Source: Owenia fusiformis (Eukaryota > Annelida > Polychaeta > Sabellida > Oweniidae). From it: 64,000 bases of DNA. Every line of letters begins with the position of its first letter. Position 1 is the first letter of the stretch. Made by a program: the position numbers and the translations under genes. The DNA is taken from positions 28,091,223-28,155,222 of the forward strand of contig CAIIXF020000002.1 in NCBI GenBank assembly GCA_903813345.2, given 5' to 3'. Of the stretch, positions 32,289-61,350 are shown in pieces. Below the pieces are notes generated by a model. It was not told the origin of the DNA and made no database searches. It saw nothing but the letters and a program-made list of their open reading frames with translations.

Positions 32289-32745
32289 ATGGGTTCAACA
32301 AAACTAATGCTAACCAAGCTCATACAAGACTCTGTGCTTAAACTGTGCACTCAGAATTTAACATTCTCTGCCACCCTTGAAATAGATGGAATCATATGTA
32401 TCAACACTGGCCCTCAGGATGATGAAATTGTTGTCAAAATGCACAGGACTATTGTTAACCAACAGAACGATCGCACACCCCTGATGGATCAATGGGAGAA
32501 TACTGAACTGCCGATGCCTAGGACGCAATTTTCAGAACATTTTTCAAAGGAGAAACAACAGTTTCAAAAACCATATCTCTCACCCCAGACACATGCTCCT
32601 GTTAAGAGTACATCTGCAAAAATAACAGAAACGGCTGTAAGAATGCCTACTCTTACGTCGAGTACCTATAGCCCAGGCCCCCCTTCAGCCACTCTTCATG
32701 CTCCTGGTGGTAAACTACCCTATGATGCTCAGGATATAGTCAAAG
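32289..32745 (+). CDS. Zinc-finger cassette gene, constant exon A (start codon)
   Basis: ATG at 32289 begins MGSTKLMLTKLIQDSVLKLC; a possible 5' UTR acceptor (TTTTACTTTCAG) lies at about 32231. The exon encodes 152 codons plus one base and stops at donor G|GTATGA (32745/32746). The first 55 residues alternate hydrophobic and polar residues (NLTFSATLEIDGIICI, DEIVVKMHRTIVN) and look like a small folded domain. The rest is Ser/Thr/Pro-rich. I do not recognise a BTB, KRAB, SCAN or ZAD domain. Reading on past the donor runs into intron DNA and a MITE, which supports the donor. Role inferred: constant N-terminus of a transcription factor family made by alternative last exons. Confidence 0.8.
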
Positions 32746-32837
32746 GTATGAATTATATCACTAGCACACTGCACGTAAATTTTACAAATCTCAGTATTGT
32801 AGGACAAATTAAATGTTCTCCTAGAAAACACAATGTT

Positions 32838-33010
32838 CTCCCCCAGATTTTTTCTCAAGTGGGCATAAAATTCTTCGTCTCACAATTTAGTGAACATTTC
32901 TATTTTTCATGATTTTATGAATTCTCAGGTGGTGTTGCGTACTGCGAGCCTGTGATTAAAATGTCAGCTGGGTGCCGTGACCACTTGCTCTAATTTAATG
33001 CTGGAAAATT
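32838..33010. mobile_element. Degraded copy of a CAGTG-ended repeat in intron 1
   Basis: Contains CAGATTTTTTCTCAAGTGGGC and ...CCACTTGCTCTAATTTAATGCTGGA, matching the better copies at 38942-39148 and 43139-43342. It starts about 90 bases after the constant-exon donor. Confidence 0.6.
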
Positions 33011-33082
33011 TGAACAATCTACTGTATTAATTGTACACCGTGACTAATTCATCAGTATCGTAGTCTTTATTTATGATTTCAG

Positions 33083-33382
33083 CTGAACCACCTGGTAATG
33101 ATAAACAAATTCTTGGTAAACGACCAGCCTTAGATACCAAAGAAACCACCTTAAAACCTATCCCTGAAAAACACATCAAAATTGAGAAAGATGAACCGAT
33201 AACGATTGAAATAGGGGAAGACGAAGAAGAGTTTGGTGGGGCAGAGGATCAGGAGTCATATACCACAGGAAATAGTTGGATGGGGGATGATATGTATGAA
33301 CAAGACATTAGCATGAATACAAGCATGAATGATATGGCAGCAAGTAAACAGGTCCCAGGAGGCATTCTAGATTCAAAGAAAG
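33083..33382 (+). CDS. Zinc-finger cassette gene, constant exon B
   Basis: Acceptor TTTATGATTTCAG precedes CT GAA CCA; donor G|GTGAGT follows AAG AAA G. The exon is exactly 300 nt and is phase 1 on both sides, so it can be skipped without shifting frame. It encodes EPPGNDKQILGKRPALDTKE, a Lys/Pro stretch with KHIKIEKDEP (a possible SUMO-type IKxE site), then a strongly acidic run EIGEDEEEFGGAEDQE, and a Met/Asn-rich end. This looks like a disordered regulatory region. The 3' end supplies the G that completes a Gly, Ala or Asp codon with each of the seven variable exons. Confidence 0.85.
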
Positions 33383-36300
33383 GTGAGTTTAATTTCTTTT
33401 GAAACTCAGGGTCACCCATATTTGTGTTTGTGATAATGTGAACAGAGGACAGAGAATCCAATTAATGTACTGTGAGCCTTTGCACTTATTTTGTCAAAAA
33501 TTTTGTCTTTATTTTTTCACATTATTTTTTTTTCGTATTTAATTTATGTTGTTGAACTTACTTCCTCATCTAGAATGGTTTTGCTTGACAGGTTATTAGG
33601 GTTTTTATAACCCCAAATTTCTTTTTAAAATCTTGCACTTTGGTTGTATTTTTCAAAGTTGAGCTTGTTTTTTGAAACCTAACTGTTTATACATTGATCA
33701 TGCCAGGATTTTTTGACTCGACTATGTAGACATTTTTTTCTTACTCGTTGTTTCAATAGCTGGGTTATAACAAACACAAGTATGGGATAAAGTGATCCAT
33801 TCAAGAATCATGTCACATCCAGATTTTTAATGTAAATAAACTTATTGGAATTGTCGCATATTGGCAATCTTTTGATAGATGATGTCAATCGGCCTGGTCA
33901 AGCTTGAAAAGCCACAAAATAAGTTTAATATTTGAAGGCTGCACTTTTTCAAAGCTGGACTAAAAATCTGCTGATGTTTTGTTGTTCTTTATTTTGTTTT
34001 GAATTTGGCTTTGACATGTACTCCAGATTTATTGTGTATTTAGATAGATATTTATGGAAGAATGAACAAAGTTTGTTAGAGACCAAGTGATATTAAATCT
34101 TCTGGGAATAACCCTAGGAATTCTCTTGGCGAAATGCTGCTGCTTCAAAAAATTAAAAATTTTATGAATATTTTAGGTTTTTCATTGAAACAAATTTCTG
34201 TTTGAACTTTTTGGTACATATACATTTACATTCCATAAAGTTAGACTTAAAAATACAGAATTGAAATGCAATTTTGTTCATTAGGATTTGCTCCTTCTTG
34301 GAGTTGTCTTTCTTGTTAGCAACTATTAATTCCTAATCTAGATAAAAAGTCAGAAAATACTTCCAAAAAGTAAATTAACAAAAAACAAAAAAAATAAACT
34401 CACATTCTGTGTTTACTATCAATAACTATTGGAATTAAAATAGTAAGGCTCTAAAACAATATTTGTAGTTGGAGACTTGTCTTGTAATTGTAGGTATATA
34501 TGTTGTAACACTTGACAAGCTTTATACGTCAACTTGGGTTAATTTGGTGCTCGCTTATTTTGCGATTTTGGCAACTTGAGAAAAATTTGCCGATTTACAT
34601 CTTACTTAAAATTAATGAAAATAAATCCCTGGAATTTGTTATTTTTGTGTATCATGGAGTTAGTCTTCATGTGAAATAATTTTAAGAAATCATGCCTTAT
34701 ATAAATTAGCAAAGAAAAACAAAGCCATTGGTATTTTTAGCCTCATAATGATGGTTTGGTGGCTAGTATCAAAGTCAGTGACAATGGAAATTGTAGTACT
34801 CCGTGAATATATTCAAATTCTAAATACATGTATGGTCTGAATTGAAAAAAGAGAAATCAAGTTTCTCCCAAATCTGCCAAGTATATAGCCAGCATGTCAA
34901 AAATCTGATATATTGCAAAACTTATAATGGCACGCACCAAATTAACTCAACATATTTCATCATTATGTTTTTGATTGTTTCATTTATTAGCTCATCATAG
35001 TTTAAAGAAAATGTAGTTATAAGCTTAAAAATGTTTTATATTGCATTACTGACCAGAAAATTACTATGTATATTTATTCAGCTCTTGGTGAAAAAAATTT
35101 CTCACGTTTACACAAATGAGGTCAAGTTTATGTGACATGGCTAAAGATTGTATGAAAAGTTCCTTGGTTGTGGTTTACTTTTTAAAAGCAGGTTTCCTTA
35201 CTCACTGACATTTGAACCCTTTCTTTCTACAGGTCATTTAAGTAATCACCTTTAAAAAAGTAGTTGCAGGGCTATTTAAAACAAATAACCACACTTTCAG
35301 TTGACACTTGCAGGGAGGACTGACATATTTTCTGACAATATGTCATTAATGGCCTGACACCATGACATGTGGTTTGACACCACTGGGAGCTGCTAATTAC
35401 ACCATAGTAATGGTCACTCACAACGTGTAACAATAAAACAGAAAAGCAATACAAAAGAGGAAATCATTATAACAATGCAGTTTATGAGAATTTAAATGAC
35501 AGAAGTAAAAATGGAAAACATCAACAATCCATATTATTTTTAAAAACACCAAAAAATTCAGTGGAACTTAGAATTTGCCTTTTTAGTCTTTGCAGAATTA
35601 AGTAATTTCACTCGCAGAACATCATTCGAATTTGCAAAAAACTGGGAGATGTGATTGTTCATACAGCCCATCACTTCTTATTGTTATACAGTAAAACCTG
35701 CCTAACTGGAACACTTTTGGTACCTCTAAAATGTTTTCTACTTCCACTTATAAAGGTTCATTTTTTAACAATAAGTCAGTTGGTTTTAGGACACTAAAAA
35801 GTGGTCCACTAACAGAGGGGTTCCTCTTTAAAGGATTCACTATTTTATTGATAAAAATAGAACATGGTATTATCCCCAGGGAAGCTGAGTATTGTAGGAA
35901 CTTAGGTCAAAGAAAGCAGTCTTGCAAATTCTGAAAAATTATCAAGTGAATTTCATCTATGTTGAGCTTTAAGCTGACTGTCCTTCAGATTCCCCAACTT
36001 GATAGACAGAAAACCTTCTGATTTAGAATAGGAATACATAAACAGTTGTGGTAGTACTTGTTCAATCTTCATTTATTTAATTCCCAACTCAGAGGTTTCA
36101 CTAGAATTTCTCACATCAGGCTAAATAAATGAAAACAATGGGCAAAATGAATAGAAATCATAATTTTAACATGGGAAACTTAAAACAACAGGCGCTTTTG
36201 TGAAAACAACCGGTGAAAATCGCCTGTTGCCTGCCGCTAATGAAACCCCTGCAACTGAATGTTAGATTTTTTTTACTGGGTGATTGAAATTTGAAATTAT

Positions 36301-36429
36301 CAGCTTTGGGCAATGCCTTAGTTAGTTACTACAGTCCTGGGAGATCCAGGCCTTGTTTCTTATGGCAATGTGTTCCACTTCAACCTAATAACTAATACGT
36401 CTGAGTGGAGATGCTTATGGAGACATAAA
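33383..36429 (+). other. First part of the long intron before the variable exons
   Basis: AT-rich intronic DNA. No zinc-finger exon is seen. A pogo-like MITE lies at about 35689-35860; a short ORF there is a shadow. Confidence 0.6.
35689..35860. mobile_element. pogo/Tigger-like MITE (right end diverged)
   Basis: Preceded by TA and starting CAGTAAAACCTGCCTAACTG; shares GGTACCT, AATAAGTCAGT and AGTGGTCCACTAACAGAGG with the element at 16923-17106. Right terminus not identified. Confidence 0.55.
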
Positions 36430-37040
36430 TTACAGTAACTGAGCGTTAAACTTTATACTTAAATAGACAAGTAAGGGAGGCTAAACTTCTAATAAATCTA
36501 AGTGTACATACTTATAGAGACACAAATCGTAGTAAATGAGTATACATATGTAAATAAACAAGTAAGGGAGACCCAACTACTAATAAGTTGAGTGTACATG
36601 CTTAAGGGGACAAATAAGGGAGACCCAACTACCAATAAGTCTGAGTGTACATGCTAATAGAGACAAGCATTATGGAAACTCGACTACTAATAAGACTGAG
36701 TGTACATGTTTATAGAGACAAGTAAGGAAGACTCGACTACTAATAAGACTGAGTGTACATGCTTATAGAGACAAGTAAGGGAGACTCGACTACTAATAAG
36801 ACTGAGTGTACATGCTTATAGAGACAAGTAAGGGAGACTCTTCTACTAATAAGACTGAGTGTACATGCTTATGAAAACAAGTAAGGGAGACTCGACTACT
36901 AATAAGAGTGAGTGTACATGCTTATAGAGACAAGTATGGGAGACTCGACTACTAATAAGTCTGAGTATACTGCTTATAGAGACATAACTTAATGTAACTG
37001 AGCGCACATATTATAGATACAAGTAGAGGAAACCTAACTC
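36430..37040. repeat. 53-bp minisatellite upstream of variable exon 1
   Basis: About ten copies of a unit containing GAGACTCGACTACTAATAAG and GAGTGTACATGCTTATAGAG. Period 53 bp in the regular centre. Ends about 25 bases before the acceptor of variable exon 1. Confidence 0.95.
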
Positions 37041-37063
37041 TGACTGTACATCGTGTTTTACAG

Positions 37064-37461
37064 GTGGCATATATCCTGTTCAAAGATGGTCGGAAGAAAA
37101 GAAACATATTTGTCCCCTGTGTCACAAAGGATTCTCGAGGAACTATGATCTTAAACGCCACTCAAGGATACATACTGGCGAGAAGCCCTATCAATGTGAA
37201 ATATGCAGTAAAACATTCAGTAGAAAGTGTAGCTTGCAAAAACATAGTCGTGTTCATCTAAATGAAGGCAGCACTCACTTTGAAGAATATAGCAGTGAAA
37301 ACAACAACACTGCAATGAATAATACTGAATATTTGATGGAGCCATATTTACAGCAAAATACATCAATGGAAATTCCACTTAAAATAGAGCTGGAATCCTC
37401 TCATCTTGATGATTCCGTTGAAACTGATGTTGTGAAGAAGGAAATTGATGACACAATGTGA
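37064..37461 (+). CDS. Variable exon 1 (two C2H2 fingers, terminal)
   Basis: Acceptor TGTTTTACAG then GT GGC ATA TAT; phase 1. Reading gives GIYPVQRWSEEKKHI and two canonical fingers (C-x2-C-x12-H-x3-H twice) joined by a TGEKPYQ linker, at about 37111-37173 and 37195-37257. Helix residues -1/2/3/6 are R/Y/D/R and R/C/S/K. A tail of about 67 residues follows, Asn/Glu-rich then MEIPLKIELESS and VVKKEIDDTM. Stop TGA at 37461. An ORF in another frame covers the first half, but only this frame gives fingers and matches the constant-exon phase. Role: DNA-binding module for one isoform. Confidence 0.9.
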
Positions 37462-37473
37462 AAAATGAACTGA

Positions 37474-37479
37474 AATAAA
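37474..37479 (+). promoter_or_regulatory. Polyadenylation signal candidate, variable exon 1
   Basis: AATAAA 13 bases after the stop codon. Two further AATAAA lie at 37876-37881 and 37899-37904, which would give a 3' UTR of about 450 bases. Confidence 0.4.
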
Positions 37480-38320
37480 AAGGAAATTGCTATGAAAATG
37501 TGAACAGTACACAAAGTAACAATGGAAGGAATCCTAAAGCATAATGAAGAGGAGTGAAGGATTGCAATGTGCATATGTACATATATTTTATAAAGGGGCG
37601 TCATAACAAAACTATAGATTCAATTTTATCTCATGCAAAATGTGATGTAAAAAGACAATGAAATGTTTAAGCATAATCCTGCTTGTGGTGTTGGTAATGA
37701 AGATTAATGAATATAACTGAATATTTTATTTATAATTTTATTTTATTATTATACTATCATGCATGCCTTTTTTTGGCTAGCCAACATACCCAATGTTTAA
37801 AGAGAATAGACTCTCATCCAGATAGAAATGGTATACATGGTCACTAAGTTCTACATTCACTGCTACACTGTAGTTAATAAAGGGGTCTATAGTTTATCAA
37901 TAAAAGTGCTTCTAAATAAGGCATTATAGTCATTAAAGGGCTTAATAGTTATGAGGGCACTGTAGTTATTGAAACGGGATTTGTAGTTAAGACCAAATAG
38001 TCTTTAAAGGTTGTTGCAATGTTGTCATTTATTGTATTATATCTAATAGAGTTGAATAAAAAACTTAATTGATCTTAATTAATTTCTTAGAACTTAATTC
38101 AGTCTTTGGAATTATCAGATCACTATCAATGAACATGTAGACTTTGGTTTAATCCTATAGGCTACAGCCAATCTCTAACAGGGCTGTACAGTACCGTTTT
38201 AACATGTTACCATACAGTACTTCTTTTGTATTGTATTGTATACTGTTTACCAGTAATGAAGGTGAGCAATACATTTTGGGTATATCCCATATATATAAGG
38301 TTGTAATTAACGTAATTAGC

Positions 38321-38568
38321 CTGGAAGATAGACCCAGAAACCCCTCCCCAAAGGAGCCCTGTGTTCTTTTATGTGCACCCATACATAGACATACAAGTAC
38401 ACACCACGGCCTTTTGTACGAGATGTGGACCACTCAGTCAAACACCCCGAAGTACTTTTCGCAAACAAGCAAATTAAATATTGCCTGAACCGGGGATCGA
38501 ATCCGGGACCTATTGTGTAAGAGGTACCTGTGCTACCACTGAGCTATACTGGTGGACTACTGTAAATT
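38321..38568 (-). mobile_element. tRNA-derived SINE, family B
   Basis: On the minus strand a tRNA-like head (box A AGCTCAGTGGTAGC, box B GGATTCGATCCCC) is followed by a body running into a segment with TTATGTGCACC and GGAGCCCTGTGTTC on the plus strand. The body recurs near 62990-63105. It lies in the intron between variable exons 1 and 2. Confidence 0.7.
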
Positions 38569-38941
38569 ATGTTAACATGTACTTAAACAGTACTGTACTG
38601 TAATTTTTCTCAAAATTGACTGAGGATTTCATTTGGATTGGAAATTGGGATGTCCATCTTTTCAATTTATTTGCCACTGATAACCATAGAAATTGTAAAA
38701 TATCCCAAAATAAAGCCAAGAAAGACTATTTGAGGTTAAGAAAAAAGCATAACATGGAATGATGAGAGAAATAAATTGTAAAATTTGGCAAGTTTGCAAA
38801 TCTTTGTCTGAACTCATATCTAGTCCTTGTTACCCTTTGGATATAATTATGTCATCACTTAGAAGTTTTGACATATTGTTATATTGTGATAGGTTCTACA
38901 CTATTGTATGTTACCCATTTTCACATTTTAAGTATACTATC

Positions 38942-39148
38942 CAGTGTTCTCCACAGGACTTTTTTCAAGTGGGTGCAAAATTCTAATTTTCACGATTCAG
39001 ACAAAAATTGGTCTAAATATATACTGATTTTTCATGATTTTTCACATTTTCAAGTGGGTGCAAATGGATTTTCAGGTGGGTGCAAGCCTGTTTTGAAAAA
39101 CTCAGGTGGGTGCTGCGCCCACTTGCTTTAATGCTGGAGAGATCACTG
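38942..39148. mobile_element. MITE with CAGTG...CACTG ends, possible 5-bp duplication
   Basis: Left end CAGTGTTCTCCAC, right end GGAGAGATCACTG; CTATC flanks both ends (38937-38941 and 39149-39153). Inside is a thrice-repeated AAGTGGGTGCAAA/CAGGTGGGTGC motif. Nearly identical copy at 43139-43342 and a decayed one at 32838. Confidence 0.75.
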
Positions 39149-39899
39149 CTATCACTTTTCACATTTTAGGTGAACAATTTTATTAGTTTTCACATTTTAG
39201 GTGAACTATGTTATCACTTATCACATTTTAGACAAAATATCTTATCAGTTTTCACATTTTAGGCAAATATATAATCTGATTTTACATTTTAGGCTAAATT
39301 CTTTTTGACAATATTGGCTTGCAGTCTTTAGATTTTACCCATACCATGAATACAGGCTTTATGTTTTTAGGCAAAATCTGCTTATCAGAATCTTCATATC
39401 TTGGGCATTATATGCTACCACAGTGTGGGTCATATCCACTCAACAGTAGCCCCAGGCAGATGTAAATAATTAGAGTCAAGTGTAAATTGAAGTGCCTTGC
39501 CACATTGTCTAACATGAAAAATATGAAATTCGCCATTGTTGAATTTTATAGAACAAATTCAATTTTAAATACTTGCATAAACATAGTACTTTCTTTTTAA
39601 AGATTTGTATTCACAAGAAAACTTTGAGTATACATATAATTTATCATCAGTGGCAACACTGTGGCGAGTGTAACTTTTCATTGTCAATTGCCACTTGTCA
39701 AGTGCCAGAAAAATCCTAAGACCCACACTGTACCAGTTTTCAGATTTTTGGCAATATTTGTAACCAGTCTTACACATCGTACACAGATTTACACATTTGC
39801 AACTAGGTGGATTACTTTAAAGGGATTGTTCACTCTGTTTTATTCCTATCCTCTGTTACTCTATTGGATTAAAAGGCATGCTTGTCATTTATTTTTCAG

Positions 39900-40354
39900 G
39901 AAACCAGTCAGAAGATACAAATCACATAAATAAGACAGTAAGAGGACCTAATAAGGCTAATGCTTTGGAAAATTCCCAGAATGATGATATGAGACAAGGA
40001 AAGTCAATATATGAAGCTGGACAATCATTCAGGGATGAAAACTCCTTATATGGAGATGGAAATAGAACCTCCTTATATAGTGATGGAAATAGAAACTCTT
40101 TATATGGCAGTTTACTACAAAATAAACCAGAACATGATGATAGTATTAATTTGAAGAAGCATGTATGCCAGATGTGCTTGAAAAGATTCTCGAAAAAGGG
40201 AGATTTGACGCGCCATCTCATGATCCATACTGGCGAGAGACCATTTCAATGTAACTTGTGTGAAAAGGCATATAATAGAAAGTTTCTATTAGAAAATCAT
40301 TATAGGAACACTCATTTTTATCATATTGATAAAGCGCTTAACATTACTATGTAA
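39900..40354 (+). CDS. Variable exon 2 (two C2H2 fingers, terminal)
   Basis: Acceptor TTATTTTTCAG then GA AAC CAG; phase 1, giving Gly at the junction. About 88 residues of polar sequence follow, including three tandem variants of SLY(G/S)DGNR from a small internal repeat. Then come two fingers: CQMC...HLMIH (x12, x3) and CNLC...HYRNTH (x12, x4), linked by TGERPFQ. Helix residues are K/G/D/R and R/F/L/N. The protein ends 13 residues after the last His. A polyadenylation signal AATAAA lies at 40793-40798. Finger 2 closely resembles that of variable exon 3. Confidence 0.9.
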
Positions 40355-41609
40355 TCTGTCCCTTCAGAATTTTGCCTTTTTTCAAAATATTGCTAATAAG
40401 ATTGTGGATTTTGCTATTTAAAACCTAAGGATATTGCAAAAATTTGCAAAAAGAGCATTCAAGAAGGTAATGAAATGTTTTGTTTTTGCGATCTTGTGCA
40501 TCGACTCCAGTAAAAAACTTCAATTTTCTTGCTTTTTTTGCGACAGGAATTTTGTGAATGACACCCAATTTTGCCAAATCACATTGGGATAGCAGAAACA
40601 CGAATTTCTGTAGGGACAGTGTTATGGAAAAACTGTAGAGAGTTCAGTGGATTTATCTGAAAAGTGCCTCTATGAACTTTTAAATGTAAATATTGTTGGT
40701 GCTAAAATCTTGTTCTTTTACAGTTTGGTCTTTATTATGATCCTGCAATTTTAGATTTTTTATCTCAGGTTGGATTTTACTGTTACAGTTGAAATAAAAA
40801 ATATTACATGAACATATGACTCTTGTGTATTTTTAGACCCCAGTGATAAGACTTATTCAAAAGATTACTGGACGTTTAAACTGAAGATATTTACAACATA
40901 CTGATTTTTTGTACACTGTATTTGATGTCTTAATTCACCCAACAGATGTGTTAAGCTGGGCCTAGAAGAATAACTTTTATCTGTTTCTAGAAAATGACAA
41001 TTTGTGTATGCAAGCCTCCATATAAAATGTCAATACTTATTAGCTTCTTGGCCTTCCTAAAGGTTTTATTCTTTTTGGTATTTTTGTTTGTTGTATCTGT
41101 AATAATTCCCATAATTATTTCAGTGACTTATTTACTTATTTACCAAGGCCAGTAGCTGTCACATTAGCCAAGTTGGGTCACCCTTCTCCTCAGTGTTGCT
41201 GATTTTGGGCATTAATTTTTTTGCCCACTGTGTATTCATGTTGAGTTAAGAATTAACACGGTGACCAATTGTGACAGCATCCAACTTGTCACCCGAAGTC
41301 CCTTGAAATGATACCAGTGCTTAATATACCAGCCCTTTTAATGGCTATATTCCCTTAGCTGCCTTGCAACTTTAATAATAAGGTTCAGCATCATCTTAAT
41401 AAAAATATTTAACATTTCTACATAAATAGTGTAACCTTAAGAGATTTCTTACATTTTTGAAATATGAACTTTGTGATTCATGGTACATAAATAGATCAAA
41501 TATATTTTCTGAAGAGTGTCGCAAGTAATTTCTGATAAAGGGTAGGAACAGTCATAAGATACAAAAATGATAGATGGAATGTTTATCTACTGTTTATTAA
41601 ATGTTCCAG

Positions 41610-42076
41610 GTGGATATGGAATATATGCTGACATCATAGGGTATTCACATGATAATACAAGAGTAAAAGCGGAGTATGACCCAGAAACCACTTTAACACA
41701 CAACTCACGAGGAACTATACCATGGAAGAACAATTTAGGAAATATATGTGAACAAAGGAGTTTGACTGAACAGAGCAATTCAAAACAAAGTAAAAGGAGT
41801 AAAATTAGATATAAGTGTGATTTGTGCCTTAGGGGCGGATTCAGGTCTAAGGCAGAGCTTGGAAGACATGTTATGATCCATACTGGCGAGAAGCCATTTA
41901 AGTGTACTTTGTGTGAGAAGGCATTTAATAGAAAATGGCTGCTTGAGACTCATCATAAAAGCTGCCATGCAAAGATTGATAACCAGACAACTCATCCCCT
42001 AGACAACTCATACATGGATAACTCAACCCCTAGACAAGTCAACCCCTGGACAGCTGATCATCCCCTGGACAACTGA
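41610..42076 (+). CDS. Variable exon 3 (two C2H2 fingers, repeat-derived tail)
   Basis: Acceptor AATGTTCCAG then GT GGA TAT; phase 1. A linker of about 67 residues includes GTIPWKNN. The first finger is CDLC...HVMIH with 13 instead of 12 residues between the second Cys and first His (an extra Gly: LRGGF). The second is CTLC...HHKSCH (x12, x4). Linker TGEKPFK. Helix residues S/A/E/R and R/W/L/T. The C-terminal 29 residues (PLDNSYMDN, PRQVNPW, HPLDN) are translated from a 16-bp-type minisatellite that continues past the stop. AATAAA at 42197-42202. Confidence 0.88.
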
Positions 42077-42150
42077 TCATCACCTGGACAACTCATCCCC
42101 TGGACAACTCATCCCCTAGACAACTCAACCCTAGACAACACAAAAAAATG
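41985..42150. repeat. Minisatellite overlapping the end of variable exon 3
   Basis: Units of CCCCTGGACAACTCAT and close variants. It supplies the last coding residues and the start of the 3' UTR. The array at 42335-42570 carries the reverse complement of the same unit. Confidence 0.85.
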
Positions 42151-42334
42151 CTGAAGTCTAAGGTATTACTAGAAAGGAATTATTAAACTGCATCTTAATA
42201 AATATATCTTGAATTATTTGAAATATTATTGTTAACTTTATTTGAATGTACATTATATGCCACTATATTTGTTTTACCTCTGAATTGATAATTTAATCTC
42301 AAAAAATATTTCCTTAAAATGCAGAGCGATGAGT

Positions 42335-50079: not shown

Positions 50080-50465
50080 GGGATTTAACAGATAAACCAC
50101 ATCCAGACACACAAGATGAAACATCACAAGGAGATGCTTTTGCAAGTGATGCACACACTTCTTCCTGGGCTAATACCTATCAAACTAGTGAAAGCACAGA
50201 TGGGTTAAAAGAGGAGTCAATACCTTGGTCAATATTGAACAAAGCCACACCTGCGTCATACAATGGCACTCCTTTGGGGAATAAGCAGAGATACCCCTGT
50301 GATTTATGTCTAAAGACTTTCGGTTCAAAGGCAGATTTGGGTAGACATCTTATGATTCACACTGGTGAAAAACCATTCACTTGTGATTTATGCTTAAAAT
50401 CATTCAATAGGAAAGGTGTCTTGAAAAGACATATGAAATCTGTGCATAACATGGACATCTTATGA
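50080..50465 (+). CDS. Variable exon 4 (two C2H2 fingers, terminal)
   Basis: Acceptor GTCTGTTTCAG then GG GAT TTA; phase 1. About 74 residues of acidic/Ser-Thr-rich sequence ([22 protein letters not shown]) lead to fingers CDLC...HLMIH (x12, x3) and CDLC...HMKSVH (x12, x4) with a TGEKPFT linker. Helix residues S/A/D/R and R/G/V/R. The frame ends NMDIL-stop: the last codons and TGA come from the beginning of the next copy of a 110-bp tandem repeat of the finger itself, read out of frame. Finger 1 is a close relative of finger 1 of variable exon 3. Confidence 0.9.
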
Positions 50466-51185
50466 TTCACACTGGTGAAAGACCATTCATATGTGATTTA
50501 TGCTTAAAATCATTCATTAGGAAAGGTGTCCTTAAGAGACATATGAAATCAGTGCATAACATGGACATCTTATGATTCACACTGGTGAAAAACCATTCAC
50601 ATGTGATTTATGCTTAAAATCATTCAACATGAAAAATGTCCTAAAAGGACATGCAATCAGTTCATAACATGGACATCTTATGATTCACACTGGTGAAAAA
50701 ACCATTCAAATGTCATTTATGCTTAAAATCATTAAGCAGGAAAGGTGTCCTAAAAAGACATATGAAATCACTGCATAACATAGACATATTATGATTCACA
50801 CTGGTGAAAGACCATTCACATGTGATTTGTGCTTAAAATCATTTAATAGGAAAGGCGTCCTAGAAAGACATGAAATCACTGCATAACATGGACTTCTTAT
50901 GATTCACACTGGTGAAAAACCATTCTCATGTGACTATGAATCAGTGCAAAAGCAAAAACCATTCTCTTGTGATTATACTTAAAGAATTCAATAGGAAATG
51001 TGTCCTAAAAGACATAAATTAGTACGTGGCATTTGTATTTTATGATTCATACTGGTGAAAAACCATTCACATGTGATTTATGCTTAAAATTATTCAATCA
51101 GAAAGGTGCCCTAAAAAGACATATGAAATCACTGCAATATGGACATGGATGATTCATAGTAGTGAAAAAAAAACCATTCACCTAC
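50341..51185 (+). repeat. Tandem array of decaying second-finger copies, about 110-bp period
   Basis: The segment starting ACATCTTATGATTCACACTG recurs with starts near 50343, 50453, 50563, 50671, 50782, 50890 and, more diverged, about 51040 and 51145. Spacings of 108, 110 and 111 bases put some successive copies out of frame. Each copy encodes the end of finger 1, the linker and finger 2. Only the first is in the reading frame; the rest form the 3' UTR and carry deletions. AATAAA at 51322-51327 and 51339-51344 follow. Confidence 0.9.
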
Positions 51186-51451: not shown

Positions 51452-51945
51452 AATAGGTGAGGCAAATTGAAATAGGTGAGGCAAATATAAATAGATGATT
51501 CAAATTGAAATAGGTGAAACAATTATATGTGATGAGGCAAATTGAAATAGGTGAGGCAAATTTAAATAGGTGAAGCAAATTGAAATAAGTGAGGCAACTT
51601 GAAATAGGTGAGGCAAATTGATATAGGTGAGGCAAATTGAGATAGGTGAAGCAAATTGAAATAGGTGAGGCAAATTGAAATAAGTGAGGCAACTTGAAAT
51701 AGGTGAGGCAAATTGATATAGGTGAGGCAAATTGAGATAGGTGAAGCAAATTGAAATAGGTGAGGCAAATTGAGATAGGTGAGGCAAATTGAGATAGGTG
51801 AGGCAAATTGAAATAGGTAAGGCAAATTGATATAGGTGAGGCAAATTCGAATAGGTGATACAATTATATGTGGTGAGGCAAATTTAAATAGGTAAGGCAA
51901 ATTGATATAATTAAGGCAAATTGAAATAGGTGAGGCAAAAATTGG
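51452..51945. repeat. 19-bp minisatellite
   Basis: About 25 copies of ATTGAAATAGGTGAGGCAA. A five-unit (95-bp) higher-order repeat is visible: ATTGAAATAAGTGAGGCAAC recurs at about 51579 and 51674 with the same neighbours. All three minus-strand frames stay open (95- to 137-codon ORFs) because the unit lacks stop codons there; not coding. Confidence 0.95.
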
Positions 51946-52491
51946 GTTAAAGCAACATATTATTATCATTCATTAGACTTTATTTTCAAGGTTTTAATTG
52001 AAAAAATGTAAATTTTTGTGAGGAAGTACCTTGGCTGTCTCATGCCTGGTTATGCTTATTATACCAAAATATTTTAGTAGTAAATAATTATATAACACAC
52101 TCAAAGTGCACGTAAATCATAGCAAATTATTCTAGAATAAAATGAATGAAATTATTTAACAATTGTGTTTATTTAGTTCTGTGATAATTATGATGTTTAT
52201 TTCAACAAAATAGATTCATGAAAGGAGAGGGAGTCATATTAAACCCCTTGAATATCCCGAGTGACTAATTATCAGTCACAAAGCTTCTCAACAATATGGC
52301 CCTAAATACGACAAATATTTTTTATACAAAATATGTATTAGAATGTGTGTGTTTTTCTCTATGTTCAGTTAATTACCAAAATGAATATCAAACATTGTTT
52401 ATAAAAGATAGAAGTGAAAACAAGCAAAAAATGAAGAATGATTTGGTGGTCAAGCGGTTTCTTAATGAGACTTTGATATTTCTGCTTACAG
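51946..52491 (+). other. Intron before variable exon 5, with a piggyBac-like end
   Basis: At about 52236 TTAAACCCCTTGAATATCCC resembles the left end of the TTAA element at 3784. The frame of variable exon 5 stays open upstream of the acceptor to an ATG at 52296, but that segment has no family resemblance. Confidence 0.4.
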
Positions 52492-52775
52492 GAGACCTCC
52501 CTCTATTGGCCACAATGGACACCAGATTAGCTCAAAATGTAGTGTTACATGACACAATCCATACGCAATTAATCGATGACAACCTCAACAAATATAGGTT
52601 TTCTTGTGACACATGTGGGAAAAGATTCAAGCAAGATTATTTTCTCAAACGACATTCAAAGATCCACACTGGTGAGAAGTCATTTAAATGTGACTTGTGT
52701 CTGAAGCTGTTCAGAGAAAAGCATCATTTGAAAGTTCATATGACTAATGTGCATAAAAGATCAGTGAACCAGTAA
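52492..52775 (+). CDS. Variable exon 5 (two C2H2 fingers, terminal)
   Basis: Acceptor TTTCTGCTTACAG (51 to 91 region ends at 52491) then GA GAC CTC; phase 1. A short lead of about 40 residues (GDLPLLATMDTRLAQNVV) precedes CDTC...HSKIH (x12, x3) and CDLC...HMTNVH (x12, x4), linker TGEKSFK in place of TGEKPFK. Helix residues Q/Y/F/R and E/H/H/V. It ends KRSVNQ-stop. In the same frame, after four stop codons, a 10-residue repeat ORF continues to 53228 (see the minisatellite). Confidence 0.9.
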
Positions 52776-52859
52776 AGCTTGAACCAGCAAAGGATGAACT
52801 AGAAAACTGTTAACCAGCAAATTGAGAACCAATGAAGCACGAAGAAGCATAGTTTTAAT

Positions 52860-53225
52860 CAGAAAGGCATGAACAAGTAATTTTTTAGCCAGGAGCACTT
52901 GAACAAGCAAAGTTTTAGGCAGGAGCATATGAACAAGCAAAGTTTTCGCCAGGAGCCCATGAACAAGCAAAGTCTTAGCCAGGAGCACATGAACAAGCAA
53001 AGTTTTAGCCAGAAGCACATAAACAAGCAAAGTTTTAGCCAGGAGCACATAAACAAGCAAAGTTTTAGCCAGGACCACATGAACAAGCAAAGTTTTAGCC
53101 AGGAGCCCATGAACAAGCAAAGTTTTAGCCATGAGCACATGAACAAACAAAGTTTTGGCCAGGAGCACATGAACAAGCAAAGTTTTAACCAGGAACGCAT
53201 GAATGAAGTACCAATAGCTATGTTT
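52860..53225 (+). repeat. 30-bp minisatellite in the 3' flank of variable exon 5
   Basis: About eleven copies of a 30-bp unit (AACAAGCAAAGTTTTAGCCA plus GGAGCACATG). Because the period is a multiple of three, several frames stay open. The plus-strand frame reads repeated NKQSFSQEHM and is in register with the zinc-finger frame. Diverged half-units (AACCAGCAAAG) start right at the stop codon of the exon. Confidence 0.95.
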
Positions 53226-53379
53226 TAACCAGCAAAATGTGAATCAGGAAACCATGAACAAGCAAAGTCTAACCAAGAAAGTGTGAATTAGGACAATTTT
53301 TATCGAGAATGCTTGAATAAGCAAAAAACAAGAATGCCAAACAAATGATAAAACTATGAATGAGTCAGTGAAATATGAG

Positions 53380-53663
53380 GATATTAGCAGTCCTCTCACC
53401 GAGCCAATCAGAGTTTGTCGTCGAAATACGGATGACTTTCTATGTGATCATTTCCTCTGACATCACTGCATAGTTAATGAGCACGTATTTAGCACATGTT
53501 CCTCCCACTTCGCTGACTGGTTGAGAAAGAGTCAGAGTGGTAGTTTGAAATGATTAATTAACTGGGCTGTCATGGGCGCCAATCTTTGGGGCGGGCTGCT
53601 AAACTGTAATATAGTCTATACAAGGCCGAGGGTAGTTCATAACTAGACTCTGCTTGCAGGGTA
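53380..53663. mobile_element. M10 MITE copy, 5' part missing
   Basis: Matches the interior and right end of the 377-bp element (CACCGAGCCAATCAGAG, CTAAACTGTAATATAGTCT, AACTAGACTCTGCTTGCAGG) and ends AGGGTA at 53663. The left ACCCT end is not present. Confidence 0.7.
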
Positions 53664-53805
53664 TCCTTTACTTGAGGATCAGATGTTGGGATTCCCTAAT
53701 TAGTGATTGATAAAAAGTTAAAGTTGTATTCATTGAGAGGTATGGAATAGCAGAAAAAGTAACTTAGATTTAGGAGAACATTCATGTCTAATCAATTTCA
53801 CTCTC

Positions 53806-53935
53806 ATTATATCACCACCAAAAGTGGTGACACACAGGTCTCCAACTGTTTTGTGGACTGTGTTCAGCATCCAGTGTCTGCAGCAAATGGCAGGTGATGA
53901 CATTTTGCATGTTAATGCCTTGTTTTAAATCATTA
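53806..53935. repeat. Dispersed repeat, copy 2
   Basis: Same family as 42719-42890: ATATCACCACCA...GTGGTGACA and TTGCATGTTAATGCCTTGTT in the same order. Confidence 0.6.
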
Positions 53936-55159
53936 TCTGTTGTAGATGCAATGATATGCATTCAAAAATATGACAATGGAACTGAAATAACTTGTTAAAA
54001 TGTTAAATAGAAAGGTCTTACTTCGAAAGTTTCTAAATACCAAAAAATAAATATTTTATTTATTTTATTATTATTATTTTTTATTTATTTTTTTATTTTT
54101 TTTTATTTTATAATATATTTTATTTTATTTCCAAATACCAAATAGGTACATGTGTATTAAGTAATTTTTTGATGAAAAGACCACGTGCAGTATTATGGCA
54201 AGTGATTTTAGACGGTCATATCTTTCACCATGAGTACTTTCTGGGCATAAATACAGTGGTTTTTATTAAAACAACATGTTTTCTATCAAGTGAAGTACCC
54301 ATGATGATATAAAAATATCAATCAAACAATTCGAAAAATTATGAATAGGGACCCCATGTCAAAATTTTTTTCAAAATATTGTACCTTTTTACTCAAAAGA
54401 GGAGCTCCCTTTTCTGATTTTTATTGCATAAAAAGATTATTCAAAAAACATCTTCAAAAATATAATTGTATTGAAAGTCTAGTTTTGAAGATATCAATTT
54501 TCGATGACCAAAATGATGCTGAAAACAATGGATAGCACGGGTTTTGCCTATGGGAAAATAACATGGGATATGTGGTTTTTAACTTTAACGCATTTCAATA
54601 CGCATCCCCTTTTCAGAAATTGTTCATATAGTAGAAGAAACTCTTGATATATTTAAATTGAGAAAATCAAGATCCTCTTTTTTGACAATAAGCCAGGGTG
54701 GGGCCCTAATCCATAATTTTTCGGAGATTTGGATTGATATTTTACTATCATGGGGACTTCACTTGAAAGAAAACATATATGACTGTCTAAAATCACTTGC
54801 CATACTGCACATGGACCTTTAAATAAATAAGATATTAAATAGGATGTACCTTTGGTAAACCCTATTTTCAATAGTGTAGTAAGATTTTTATGGACAATCA
54901 AATAAAATCCAACAAAGTTCATCTTGGTCCTAATTGCAAAAATTTATAAGTACAAAGTTGAAGCATGTTTTGAAAAATAAAATGATTTTATAAGTTATTA
55001 AAGTTATTCACGGAAAGAACATACCGTTAACTCATATTTTTCAGCAATATGCTACACATAAATTTCATCCTACGTGCAAACCAAACAAGTCTAAATGTAT
55101 TTAGTATTTTAATAAAATGTAGTTTTTATTAAATGTGGAGTTCTTAGCTCAATTCTGTA
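53936..55159 (+). other. Intronic gene-free stretch between variable exons 5 and 6
   Basis: A T/A-rich low-complexity run lies at about 54045-54130. No finger remnant or exon is visible. Confidence 0.45.
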
Positions 55160-57345
55160 TTAAACTATGCTGACTCAAGGTTTTATGCTACACTGACACA
55201 GTGTTATATACTAGGCCTGACTCAATGTTGGATACTAGGTTGACTCAATGTTGTATACTATGCTGACACAATGTTTTATACCAGGCTGACTCAATGCTAT
55301 ATACTAGTCTGATTCAATGACCCTAATAGGCCTGACTCAATGTTGTATACTAGGCTGACTCAATGTTGTATACTAGGCTTACTCAATGTTGTATACTAGG
55401 CTGACTCAATGTTGTATACTAGGCTGACTCAATGTTGTATACTAGGCTTACTCAATGTTGTATACTAGGCTGACTCAATGTTGTATACTAGGCTGACCCA
55501 ACATTGTATACTAGGCTGACTCAATGTTGTATACTAGGCTGACTCAATGTTGTATACTAGGCTGACTCAATGTTGTATACTAGGCTGACTCAATGTTGTA
55601 TACTAGACTGACTCAATGTTGTATACTAGGCTGACTCAATGTTGTATACTAGACTGACTCAATGTTGTATACTAGGCTGACTCAATGTTGAATACTAGGC
55701 TTACTCAATGTTGTATACTAGGCTGACTCAATGTTGTATACTAGGCTGACTCAATGTTGAATACTAGGCTTACTCAATGTTGTATACTAGGCTGACTCAA
55801 TGTTGTATACTAGGCTGACCCAACATTGTATACTAGGCTGACTCAATGTTGTATACTAGGCTGACTCAATGTTGTATACTAGGCTGACTCAATGTTGAAT
55901 ACTAGGCGGACTCAATGTTGTATACTAGGCTGACTCAATGTTGTATACTAGGCTGACTCAATGTTGAATACTAGGCGGACTCAATGTTGTATGCTAGGCG
56001 GACTCAATGTTGTATACTAGGCTGACTCAATGTTGTATACTAGGCTGACTCAATGTTGAATACTAGGCGGACTCAATGTTGTATACTAGGCTGACTCAAT
56101 GTTGAATACTAGGCGGACTCAATGTTGTATACTAGGCTGACTCAATGTTGTATACTAGGCTGACTCAATGTTGTATACTAGGCTGACTCAATGTTGAATA
56201 CTAGGCGGACTCAATGTTGTATGCTAGGCAGACTCAATGTTGTATACTAGGCTGACTCAATGTTGAATACTAGGCGGACTCAATGTTGTATACTAGGCTG
56301 ACCCAACATTGTATACTAGGCTGACTCAATGTTGTATACTAGGCTGACTCAATGTTGTATACTAGGCTGACCCAACATTGTATACTAGGCTGACTCAATG
56401 TTGTATACTAGGCTGACTCAATGTTGTATACTAGGCTGACACAATGTTGTATACTAGGCTAACATAATGTTGTATACTAGGCTAACACAATGTTTTATAC
56501 TAGGCTAACACAATGTTGTATACTAGGCTAACACAATGTTGTATACTAGGCTGACTCAATGTTCTATACTAGGCTGACTCAATGTTGTATACTAGGCTGA
56601 CTCAATGTTGTATACTAGGTTGACTCAATGTTGTATACTAGGCTGACTCAATGTTAGATATTAGGCTGAATCAATGTTATATACTAGTCAGACTCAATGT
56701 TATATACTAGGCTGACTCAATGTTATATATTAGGCTGACTCAATGTTGTATACTAGGCGGACTCAATGTTGTATACTAGGCTAACACAATGTTTATACTA
56801 GGCTGACTCAATGTTGTATACTAGGCTGACACAATGTTTATACTAGGCAGACTCAATGTTGGATACTAGGTTGACTCAATGTTGTATACTAGGCTTACTC
56901 AACATTGTATAATAGGCTGACTCAATGTTGTATACTAGGCTGTCTCAATGTCGAATACTAAGCTGACTCAATGTTGGATACTAGGCTGACTCAATGTTGG
57001 ATACTAGGCAGACTCAATGTTATATACTTGTACTAGGCTGACTCAATGTTGGATACTAGGCAGACTCAATGTTATATACTTGTACTAGGCTGACTCAATG
57101 TTGAATACTAGGCTGACTCAATGTTATATTACTAGAATGATTCAATATTGTATGGCTGATTTAGTGTTGTATACTAGGCTGATTCGATATTGTATTTTAG
57201 GCTAACTCAATATTGTATTTTAGGCTAACTCAATATTGTATGTCAGGCTGACTCAATGTTGTATGCTACTGCAAGGCTGATTTAATGCTGTTTACTAGGC
57301 TCACTCAATGTTGTGAACTAGGCTGACTCAACGTTGTATTGCAGG
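55160..57345. repeat. 23-bp minisatellite, about 90 copies
   Basis: Unit CTGACTCAATGTTGTATACTAGG with point variants (CTTACTC, CGGACTC, CTGACCCAACATTG, GTTGAATAC). Variant blocks recur in order, showing block duplications. The regular centre is about 55320-56660; both edges are more diverged. It ends about 115 bases before variable exon 6. Confidence 0.95.
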
Positions 57346-57459
57346 CTCCCTCTCAGTTCTGCCAGTGTCCTATCAAATTAATTTCTGAATACAATGAATA
57401 TTAAGATGATCAATTTATTTAACAAATTATTTAAATCTTTAATCCTTTAAATTTTCCAG

Positions 57460-57665
57460 ATGTGAGAAAAAAGGATCAAGATTTGAAATGTCCTCTGTGT
57501 AAGCGCCAATTTACACAAAGAAGCAGTCTGACTAGGCACATGGTAATGCATACAGGACGTCGTCAATTCCAGTGTGATTACTGTATGAAACAGTTCTATA
57601 GGAATGAACACCTGTTGAAACATATCTGTAAAATGAAGTTTGACATTAGAAAGGAACATGCTTGA
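57460..57665 (+). CDS. Variable exon 6 (one good and one defective C2H2 finger, terminal)
   Basis: Acceptor TTAAATTTTCCAG then AT GTG AGA; phase 1, giving Asp at the junction. Shortest cassette: a lead of 9 residues, then CPLC...HMVMH (x12, x3), linker TGRRQFQ (not TGEKP), then CDYC...H with no second His at the expected spacing (HICKMKF). A Cys two residues after the His is the only nearby alternative ligand. Helix residues Q/S/S/R and R/E/H/K. Stop TGA at 57665; AATAAA at 57674-57679, only 9 bases on. Splice site and frame are intact, so it may still be used, but it is the most eroded of the seven. Confidence 0.8.
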
Positions 57666-57673
57666 TTGAGTGC

Positions 57674-57679
57674 AATAAA
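57674..57679 (+). promoter_or_regulatory. Polyadenylation signal candidate, variable exon 6
   Basis: AATAAA 9 bases after the stop codon; would give an exceptionally short 3' UTR. Confidence 0.45.
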
Positions 57680-57798
57680 CGAAGCATTGAGAGATTTGTG
57701 ATTCTTTGATCCATGCTTGCAGTGTTAAAGACACAGGGAAGTTATATTGAACACAACATTACATGGCATTATATAGAAATATAAAAAACTGATGGCTA

Positions 57799-57949
57799 GT
57801 TGATGCCTTGGTCACATTTGCTACGATTTTCATTACAGCGCCCGGCAGATTGAGTATTTTGTTCAAAATTGAATACAATATTGAACAAAACACTCAATCG
57901 GCCGGGCGCCAGCCGATGGATCGGAGCGAATGTGACCCAGGCATCATCA
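57799..57949. mobile_element. Palindromic MITE, about 150 bp
   Basis: Left GATGCCTTGGTCACATTTGC and right GCGAATGTGACCCAGGCATC are inverted repeats; inner arms (GCGCCCGGC, TTGAGTATTTTGTTCAA) also pair. Lies just downstream of variable exon 6. Confidence 0.8.
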
Positions 57950-58271
57950 TGGGCTTTGCATGCTTGATGATTTGAAAAAAGCAAGTTGCTTTTTATGGCA
58001 GTTGCCAAATTAATTTGACTGCTCTTAAAGGTCCTATGTAAAGTATAAACCATATTGGTTAAATGTTAATCATCTATAGATTAATAGATGGTGTAGATGG
58101 TGCTGATAAATTTGTGAATGAATTCGTGATATTTATTTTAATTTCACACGTTGTTATATCGGTATTGTAGAATTGAAATATTTTATTGATTACAGAATAC
58201 TATGCTATGTTTTAAACAATTTTAAACAATTGTACTTACTAGCAGTGTTTAGTAGATTGTACAAGATTACA

Positions 58272-58757
58272 AGACTTCACAGGTGCACCACACCAGAGGT
58301 GTTCCACTTCACAGGTGCACCACACCAGAGGTGTTGCACTTCACAGGTGCAACACACCAGAGGTGTTCCACTTCACTGGTGCACCACACCAGATGTGTTC
58401 CACTTCACAGTTGCACCACACCGTATGTGTTCCACTTCACAGGTGCACCACACCAGATGTGTTCCACTTCACAGGTGCACCACACCAGATGTGTTCCACT
58501 TCACAGGTGCACCACACCAGATGTGTTTCACTTCACAGGTGCACCACATCATAGGTGTTCCACTTCACAGGTGTACCACTTCACAGGTGCACCACGCCAG
58601 ATGTGTTCCACTTCACAGGTGCACCACACCAGAGGTGTTCCACAGGTGTTCCACAGGTGTTCCACAGGTGCACCACACCAGAGGTGTTCCACTTCACATG
58701 CGCACCACACCAGAGGTGTTCGACTTCACAGGTGCACCACATCAGAGGTGTTCCACT
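58272..58757. repeat. 32-bp minisatellite downstream of variable exon 6
   Basis: About 15 copies of CTTCACAGGTGCACCACACC plus AGAGGTGTTCCA. All plus-strand frames stay open for long stretches, giving Cys/His-rich ORFs of up to 206 codons (HFTGAPHQRCSTSQVHH-type repeats). These are repeat artefacts, not zinc fingers. Confidence 0.95.
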
Positions 58758-59204
58758 GTATATGTAAATAAATCACAAGTTATATTAGATTGAGACAAGA
58801 ATAAATGTGCCTAATTCTGATTTTGGTATGCGCATTAGTAATTATCATTTTAGTAAGCATATAATTGGCAGGTTATCAATCTAATTGTGTGATGGATACT
58901 TGTAATGTAAATATTTTGCTAGAAATCGCTTGATACATGTTTTCCACGAATATCAAGCTGGCCTTTGTTTTACTGATGTATTTATAGATGGAATTTTATT
59001 TGTGTGTTTTTATTCTATTCTAAGCTCAGTAACCACATTGTTGACACCTGTTGTCATTCCCCATTCATAATCAATACGAAATAACAAAACACTGCCCTCC
59101 ATATAGAACCTATTTGCTATTGTTAGCGACCTGATATTTTTTAAACACCAGCTCATTCTGTCATCTGACATGTCAAATAATAATGGATTTATTTATCTTT
59201 TATT

Positions 59205-59262
59205 TATTTAGCTATTTAAAACTTCGTTTGAGGATCCATACTGGAAAAATTTCAACTTTAAA
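59205..59262 (+). pseudogene. Remnant of a zinc-finger cassette
   Basis: The plus strand reads FSYLKLRLRIHTGK, matching the end of a C2H2 finger (F-S ... L-x2-H-x3-H-T-G-E-K) with Arg in place of the first His and some helix residues missing. No first Cys pair and no second finger are visible. It lies between variable exons 6 and 7 in the same orientation. Confidence 0.4.
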
Positions 59263-59739
59263 TGTTAATGATGGAGCTTTTGGTTCATCAAGAAAGAAAA
59301 TCCATCATTCGTAACATATACTTTCATTCCATCATACTGACAGGACTTAATCAATATCTTTTGTTAGTTTTTGTAGAGAACTTTATGATTCGTAGCATTG
59401 AAATCATTAATTAAAGAATGGAGATCCTGTCAAGACCTGTCAGAGATTTTATTGAGTATAAATTATTATTACAAATTGTTGATAGGTAAATCTAATTCTG
59501 CTCTGAAACGACCTGCTAACATTTTATTAAAAGTAGAAGAATTACACCACTTGGACCAGCCAAAAAGTGTTTAGATTAACAAGTGTTTAAAACTGTTCAC
59601 ATTGAGAGATGTTCGGAGTATAGGTTTCATTGTATGCCTTATACTATTCCAAATTATGACTTACGATCCCAGCCTTTACGATTCGTTCTATATTTACGCG
59701 CGATCAAAGTTATAATAATGTGATCAAGAAATATGATTA

Positions 59740-60724
59740 CAGTAGAGCCTGTATATCTGAACACCTGGCTTATCCGAACACCTCCCAATCTAAAAAATTT
59801 TCCGGTCCCATTTTTCCTCCCATTGACTCCCATGTTAAAAAGACTTGAAATGTGAACACCTCTCAATTTGAACAGTGAACAGTCATATTTGAACAATAGG
59901 ATAGTTTCTAAATAGCAGAAAAATCAATGAAATCTCGTGCTGCCATCTTTTATTCAGCTTTTAACTTGGGCTAGAGCTCCATTCACTTACATGCTAAAAT
60001 CTTGGAAAAGTGGCTTAATTTCATGATTTATCAAAGTGTGTTTGTTGAATCTGTATATAACTTGAATGATATACCACATGCTGACCCTGTTTATGTACAT
60101 GTTGTGATTAAACATGCAAATGTTGATTGACATACAAATAATCCACGGTTTTAAAGAATTTTAGCATTGCATCTATGGACATTTGGCCCAAGTTTTTTTA
60201 AATTGTCATAGAAAATTATTCAAATTACATAACTGTGTAAATCAAAGCTATTTTAGGAGAAAACATTTCACTGAATTCAAATATACCATTTAAAAGAAGG
60301 TAATGTAAGTCATTAGAGGTCTAATATGCAAGTCTCTTAAAATCTCACGAAAAACGAGATTTAGCGAGATTTCAAAAGCTATATGGAAACTATACTATTA
60401 ACCGGTCTAATCTGAACACTAAAATTTCACGTTTCATACAAAATTGCTCAAATATTGTAATGATATCAAAACTTTGGGATAAAAACTTGGTCTTGATTGA
60501 AATCGGGCTTTCCAGCATGACTAGATTCATTTGAATCAAATGATGAATTTTCTGATATGCTGCAAAACTATGTGGTCAAATGAACTTCAAATATGTACCG
60601 AGAATTGTCACATTCCTTCAGAATCCGGAATCTCGCGAATGCAAAAACCTTGAAATGTAAACACCTCCTAATCTGAACTCTTTAAGCCGGTCCCAATGGC
60701 GTTCGGATTAGACAGGTTTTACTG
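59740..60724. mobile_element. pogo/Tigger-like element, 985 bp, TA duplication
   Basis: Left end CAGTAGAGCCTGTATATCTG, right end GATTAGACAGGTTTTACTG; TA at 59738-59739 and 60725-60726. Inside, the phrases GAACACCT, CCAATCT and TTGAAATGTGAACACCTC recur near the left end and TTGAAATGTAAACACCTCC near the right. No transposase recognised. Confidence 0.8.
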
Positions 60725-61108
60725 TATATCTTTCAATATGCTGTAAATCAAAATGGCACAAATACTCTTGTAAAAATCAATCCTTATGCTTTCAGTTTAA
60801 TGTTATTGGCTCCAATGTAAATTGCTTACTGTGTCAGTCCATCCTAAGAGACCATGGCCTTCTATCAGCTCCTTTTTATGCCCTTCTCTTATATTGCTAC
60901 TTGCAAAATCAGAAAGATCTGATGAGTGTCAAATGATTATCCAATCATAAATTTTTGAGTCATAAATATTGTGTTAAATGATTTAGTTTAAAATAATTAA
61001 AGTATTGTATAAGTATTAAATAATAATAAAGTAAAGATCATTGAGTTATGTTATATTATTATCAAAAGCTGTGTATGTATTATTTATGCTTTTTATATCA
61101 TTTTTCAG

Positions 61109-61350
61109 CTCCAACACCTGGTTTTTATATACACGTGGCCAAAGACAATTCAGCAATATCGACCAACCCGAAAGAGCCTCTTGCAATTGCTGTTTGCGAG
61201 GTCTGTCGAAAGACATTTGCAAGCAAAGGGAATCTACTGAGACATATGTTGATTCATACTGGAGAGAAGCCATTTAAATGTGACCTTTGTAGTAAAAGCT
61301 TCAATCAGAAAGTTACATTAGAGTCACACGTAAGAACTTTTCATCCATGA
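61109..61350 (+). CDS. Variable exon 7 (two C2H2 fingers, terminal)
   Basis: Acceptor ATCATTTTTCAG then CT CCA ACA; phase 1, giving Ala at the junction. A lead of 27 residues (PTPGFYIHVAKDNSAIST) precedes CEVC...HMLIH (x12, x3) and CDLC...HVRTFH (x12, x4), linker TGEKPFK. Helix residues S/G/N/R and Q/V/T/S. The protein ends one residue after the last His. AATAAA at 61941-61946 and 61950-61955. It is the last cassette in the window; more may follow outside it. Confidence 0.9.

Follow-up and report, generated by a model that had tools for sequence, protein, structure and literature searches.

Seven candidate zinc-finger last exons behind a common N-terminus in Owenia fusiformis, in a gene family of lola-like layout

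Features of the locus

The window, the whole 64,000-nucleotide stretch of Owenia fusiformis DNA that was analyzed, contains two constant exons followed on the same strand by seven separate exons that encode C2H2 zinc fingers and run to a stop codon. The features of the locus are as follows.

32289..32745, + strand: constant exon 1, with an ATG at 32289, a conserved N-terminal domain of ~57 residues and a phase-1 donor, GTATGA
33083..33382, + strand: constant exon 2, 300 nt, phase 1 on entry and exit, donor GTGAGT, with the conserved motif IKIEKDEPITIEIGEDEEE...GNSWMGDD
37064..37461, + strand: candidate alternative terminal exon 1, two C2H2 fingers and a stop
39900..40354, + strand: candidate alternative terminal exon 2, two C2H2 fingers and a stop
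41610..42076, + strand: candidate alternative terminal exon 3, two C2H2 fingers (finger 1 with one extra residue) and a stop
50080..50465, + strand: candidate alternative terminal exon 4, two C2H2 fingers and a stop
50466..51150, + strand: tandem copies, in a unit of ~110 bp, of the second-finger part of exon 4, several of them shifted or stopped
52492..52775, + strand: candidate alternative terminal exon 5, two C2H2 fingers and a stop
57460..57665, + strand: candidate alternative terminal exon 6, one canonical C2H2 finger, a degenerate second finger and a stop
61109..61350, + strand: candidate alternative terminal exon 7, two C2H2 fingers and a stop

Direct reading places the borders of both constant exons where the original prediction had put them, correct to the base, and one codon base is left over at the 3' end of each. 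Because exon 2 is 300 nt long with phase 1 on both sides, it could be skipped without a change of frame. The seven same-strand acceptors each lie behind an AG, enter in phase 1 and lead into a frame that stays open to a stop; the junction codons read directly, GGT, GGA, GGT, GGG, GGA, GAT and GCT, are also those that had been predicted. The fifth terminal exon has a rival acceptor upstream, at 52369, which is likewise in phase 1 and scores slightly higher than 52492. The acidic KxE/EPITIE segment of exon 2 resembles what we take to be SUMO-attachment and SUMO-binding motifs, and it may be a SUMO-type repression element.

C2H2 families of Pfam match all seven terminal frames, with no FLYWCH domain among the matches listed (the best 25 of 30, 35, and 30 for the exons at 37064, 57460, and 61109, respectively). 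A finger pair, claimed originally for all seven exons, is present in six; in the sixth exon, at 57460, the second finger (CDYCMKQFYRNEHLLKHICKMKF) has no His or Cys at the usual spacing and lacks a normal last His. That exon was missed by the two-finger pattern, and Pfam at the loose threshold of E ≤ 1 counts two stretches there. Further finger matches were sought in the next 20 kb past the window, and none were found.

The broken 110-bp copies behind exon 4 indicate that dead copies do arise at this locus, and they show what unconstrained finger copies look like here. Minisatellites lie near several of the terminal exons (36558-36984, 41985-42139, 50344-50933, 51452-51939, 52868-53203, 55164-57339, and 58274-58757) and may favor exon duplication. 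Elsewhere in the window, a 319-residue open reading frame (ORF) on the minus strand (15526-16485) has a weak staphylococcal-nuclease-like match (PF00565, 21.8 bits against a cut-off of 21).

Splice phase, exon ends, and constraint

Acceptors were scored with a simple home-made matrix, and the donor scores are home-made as well. The best-scoring acceptor was chosen blind to phase for every two-finger ORF of <250 residues in the window and in four further loci of the same contig (A, C, D, and E, described below). Phase 1 was that of the best acceptor in 57 of these 63 ORFs, compared to 74 of 188 finger-less control ORFs drawn from the same stretches and three further ones; for the other six finger ORFs it was phase 0 (five) or phase 2 (one). 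The 63 ORFs include one antisense ORF of locus C, without which the count is 56 of 62; they omit the window exon at 57460 and take 52369, not 52492, for the fifth exon. Donor phase was examined in 49 of the 51 N-terminal exons found in the genome, and in 43 of them the best donor is in phase 1; for the remaining GT sites of those frames the figure is 286 of 702.

At the other end of the finger exons, the distance from the last finger to the stop has a median of 5 residues. None of 57 finger exons (7 from the window, 24 from locus A, 12 from C, 4 from D, and 10 from E) has a donor-like site scoring ≥3.5 between the last finger and the stop; length-matched random stretches give an expectation of 7.0. 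At a stricter score of ≥5 the test is weak, with 0.9 hits expected and a best donor below 5 in 23 of the 49 exon-1 cases. The short tails and the lack of donor-like sites together make the finger exons look like last exons. Concatenation of finger exons into longer proteins was considered as well and is judged unlikely on the same count at the score of ≥3.5. Polyadenylation signals after the exons are not above background (6 of the 7 window exons have one within 1 kb, where the background is 2.45 per kb).

Among the 40 best finger-exon pairs, dN/dS ranges from 0.14 to 0.75 where it is finite. The window exons at 39900 and 41610 give a value of 0.20. Four other pairs within the window (41610/50080, 61109/50080, 61109/39900, and 39900/50080) have saturated synonymous sites together with 54-68% protein identity, and the fifth exon has 56% protein identity, again with saturated synonymous sites, to an exon of locus E. 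Five of the seven window finger exons are thus under constraint; the exon at 37064 has no pair among the 40 best, and 57460 was outside the dN/dS input.

Among 58 exons, counting one antisense frame, two fingers could be read in 55, and no two of these agree at all eight of the finger positions that we take to be the usual DNA-contact residues. Other positions on the finger surface are about equally variable, so the variability of the contact residues alone does not point to selection for new targets. In a tree built from 57 finger regions, exons cluster by locus, with 10 locus changes compared to 29.5 in shuffles, on few columns and with a bootstrap that is not settled; this grouping suggests that most array growth has come from local duplication of last exons. 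In the tree, the window exons at 39900 and 41610 pair with good support and are joined, with less support, by that at 50080.

Sister loci and a new N-terminal domain

The gene had originally been seen alone, and it turns out to be one member of a large family. Exon 1 as a query gave 50 matches in the 498-Mb genome, and the corresponding domain of a sister gave 52, which fall at 51 places because one frame holds two of them; 45 of the places are on the contig of the window (C2). Four other loci on this contig were read.

C2 32.283-32.333 Mb: locus A, with one N-terminal exon, an exon-2 relative and 24 finger exons (500 bases are N)
C2 19.115-19.144 Mb: locus C, with one N-terminal exon, an exon-2 relative and 12 finger exons
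C2 14.393-14.427 Mb: locus D, with one N-terminal exon, an exon-2 relative and 4 finger exons
C2 19.776-19.799 Mb: locus E, with one N-terminal exon, an exon-2 relative and 10 finger exons

All four have the same plan, an N-terminal exon and a conserved second exon followed on the same strand by 4 to 24 short two-finger exons. In a blind scan for phase 1/1 exons between the upstream exon and the array, the exon-2 relative ranked top at all four, and EPITIE, GG, G, and SWM are invariant among the exon-2 relatives of the window and these loci. The presence of this conserved pair of constant exons at every locus read is strong evidence that the finger arrays belong to them. The arrays may continue past the stretches read; at least three more finger exons lie beyond that of locus E.

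Three finger queries found at least 102 distinct short finger exons on C2, including five of the window's seven. For 95 of these, the nearest N-terminal exon on either strand is upstream and on the same strand, with none between. The listed finger exons fall behind 18 of the 45 N-terminal exons, among the matches listed. The remaining 7 comprise a single exon at 22.097 Mb and six in an array at 32.262-32.274 Mb.

The latter is an orphan array (C2:32262459-32274237, + strand) of eight two-finger frames, all with a best acceptor in phase 1. It faces locus A on the opposite strand, ~10 kb beyond the final finger frame there. No N-terminal exon for it was found in 32209030-32219029 or 32262001-32282000, and none was listed by three whole-genome queries. 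The array could reflect an inversion, an unseen N-terminal exon, or trans-splicing.

Locus A has further features. Behind one of its finger exons, at C2:32293606-32295353, is a tandem one-finger unit (48 residues plus a stop, 147 bp) like the 110-bp copies behind window exon 4. Between exon 2 and the array (C2:32320448-32323445) lie a short one-finger frame and two longer ones with four fingers each, for one of which the best acceptor is in phase 0; these frames may be another gene or unusual last exons. On C2 as a whole, eight pairs of N-terminal exons within 15 kb of each other are arranged head to head, e.g., 34398171(-)/34404625(+), and the finger exons, where seen, run away from the pair; at this spacing neither tail-to-tail nor tandem pairs occur. 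Shared two-way promoters are possible for the head-to-head pairs.

Two members off C2 have a different organization. In one (C1:40190655-40193224), the N-terminal exon is followed by two two-finger frames with best acceptors in phase 1, and in the other (C7:15451585-15452796) a single 403-residue exon has seven finger matches, also with a best acceptor in phase 1. These members may reflect a state before the arrays grew. The N-terminal domains at C483:69513-69689 and C2:17912970-17913149 have identical protein over the 60 residues compared, and the pair is perhaps an unmerged haplotype. The genome as a whole also has three above-cut-off matches to Eryth_link_C, an annelid hemoglobin linker family. 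Its histone genes form two large clusters and a small one, similar to those described for Owenia fusiformis (PMC12153100) except in their chromosome numbers.

An alignment of 38 members defines a domain of ~57 residues with the consensus LTxxIQDAVLKLCTQ...SLEIDGIICxSPG...DIVVKMHRTIxKP, in which D33, C37, and H52 are invariant besides the start. The window exon carries this conserved domain and the phase-1 donor, the two features that mark membership in what is a new N-terminal-domain family of this genome. Pfam gave no family for window exon 1 at E ≤ 1 and nothing beyond chance for the 38 members (rows at E ≥ 0.023); KRAB, ZAD, and SCAN domains are absent from both sets of rows. Searches of the PDB with exon 1 and with the family profile gave nothing below an E value of 0.5, and a single-sequence AlphaFold2 model of the N-terminal exon has a mean pLDDT of 38.7, too low to be informative. 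We infer that the domain probably makes protein-protein contacts.

The N-terminus had been described as showing no BTB fold, and three results agree with this: no Pfam match, no overlap with BTB matches in the genome, and a probability of 0.15% in profile-profile comparison against three of the genome's own BTB domains. At least 146 genomic BTB matches were found (150 of 196 candidates scored), and by eye none lies at the place of an N-terminal exon. A BTB relic was also considered, as the invariant His and the Arg that mostly comes after it are reminiscent of the "AHR" in BTB domains; the idea was rejected, since the profile comparison gave that 0.15% over 10 columns.

Interpretation and comparison with known systems

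The seven finger exons very probably represent alternative last exons that are spliced singly to a common N-terminus, in a family of ~50 members that are mostly on one contig. This agrees with the arrangement first proposed for the locus, and it is supported by the splice phase, by finger exons that have no donor-like site, by the failure to detect intervening N-terminal exons, and by four further loci with the same layout. Six of the 63 ORFs being off phase 1, the orphan array, and the C7 member with its one long seven-finger exon count against it, as do polyadenylation signals at background level, the Met that precedes the fingers in 41 of the 63 ORFs, and the listing of finger exons behind 18 of the 45 N-terminal exons. 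As judged from the anatomy of the locus, one promoter upstream of 32289 would drive a primary transcript across the array, and the donor at 33382 would be joined to exactly one of the seven acceptors. The chosen last exon would supply its own stop and its own fingers, setting the DNA target, such that one gene would give a set of proteins with a common N-terminal domain and differing DNA targets. Exon choice might occur by competition of 3' splice sites and polyadenylation, or by splicing in trans; the latter is unneeded in the window and could serve the orphan array.

The finger exons could instead be separate primary transcripts that are trans-spliced to the constant exons, as in mod(mdg4) and partly in lola. 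The orphan array fits this idea, being on the other strand ~10 kb past locus A with no N-terminal exon found, and opposite-strand acceptors are known in mod(mdg4) (PMC4667647). All parts of the window gene, however, are on one strand within ~29 kb, and 95 of the at least 102 finger exons lie behind a same-strand N-terminal exon. The N-terminal exon of the orphan array, moreover, may be too diverged to be recognized, and the 43 kb upstream of the array were covered by whole-genome protein searches only. We consider trans-splicing of this kind improbable. It is quite improbable that one last exon alone is functional, with the others being relics of duplication that are rarely or never used. The shifted and stopped copies directly behind exon 4, the degenerate second finger of exon 6, and the position of 37064 and 57460 outside the constrained set of five count in favor of relics, but six of the seven window exons have kept an open frame, an acceptor, the phase, and both fingers. 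The protein identity retained by the window pairs and by the fifth exon and its locus E relative despite saturated synonymous sites, with the dN/dS of 0.20 for 39900/41610, also speaks against relics.

Least probable of all, and hardly credible, is that the finger exons are independent zinc-finger genes, each with a promoter of its own, that happen to be located behind a common exon. Zinc-finger gene clusters are common, and a Met precedes the fingers in 41 of the 63 finger ORFs, so stand-alone use of those 41 is possible. The acceptor phase, the common strand, and the absent donor-like sites nevertheless argue for exons of one gene, and five of the seven window exons have no Met between the acceptor and the first finger.

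With single splicing of alternative last exons as the preferred reading, the gene is lola-like by layout, having no BTB domain and so standing outside the BTB family, and an N-terminus without BTB suggests an independent origin, as had been proposed from the start. The best reading of the sequences is that the family would be an independently evolved, multigene counterpart of lola and mod(mdg4). In a more far-reaching version, toward which we lean slightly, the lola principle has evolved again as a family of ~45 loci on one contig, each with the new type of N-terminal domain and its own array of two-finger last exons, giving hundreds of isoforms with nearly all contact residues different and with at least one array perhaps served in trans.

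Insect BTB genes with swapped zinc-finger ends have been tied to neuron wiring and chromatin boundaries (PMC1947980 and PMC4667647). Here the swap-end design occurs without BTB, on an unrelated domain, and multiplied as a family, which would make the design separable from BTB. If splicing is as proposed, one gene family could yield very many DNA-binding proteins; gene counts would then understate the repertoire of transcription factors, because annotation with one protein per gene would hide most of them. No description of this family was found in the open-access literature, as judged by titles and the starts of abstracts.

Families of the KRAB, ZAD, and FiNZ types expand as entire genes, each carrying a finger array of its own, unlike the family described here, which would diversify by interchangeable two-finger last exons. 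The likeness is that all are lineage-specific families defined by a short N-terminal domain, and the FiNZ domain, like the present one, had no similarity to known domains (PMC10547256). Pfam gave no match of a KRAB or ZAD domain to the N-terminal exon.

The insect gene mod(mdg4) has common 5' exons and many zinc-binding alternative 3' exons, some of them on the opposite strand (PMC4667647). It has BTB and FLYWCH domains, whereas here BTB was not found and FLYWCH is not among the Pfam matches listed. Trans-splicing is documented for mod(mdg4) and for lola (PMC4667647 and PMC1947980, respectively).

There is also a close likeness to Drosophila lola, in which a shared set of N-terminal exons is spliced to one last exon out of many, mostly encoding C2H2 or C2HC fingers, for 20 isoforms (PMC1947980), 17 of which have different C-terminal C2H2 fingers (PMC11426971). 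A common 5' part with several alternative zinc-finger last exons of the same phase is also the anatomy of the window gene. The two differ in that lola has a BTB domain and the window gene an unrelated short N-terminal domain, and in that lola is a single locus, compared to 51 matched places for the family here, with five arrays read on C2. A natural comparison is what the two N-termini share, such as oligomerization or repression, and why the choice of a last exon suits the making of many transcription factors.
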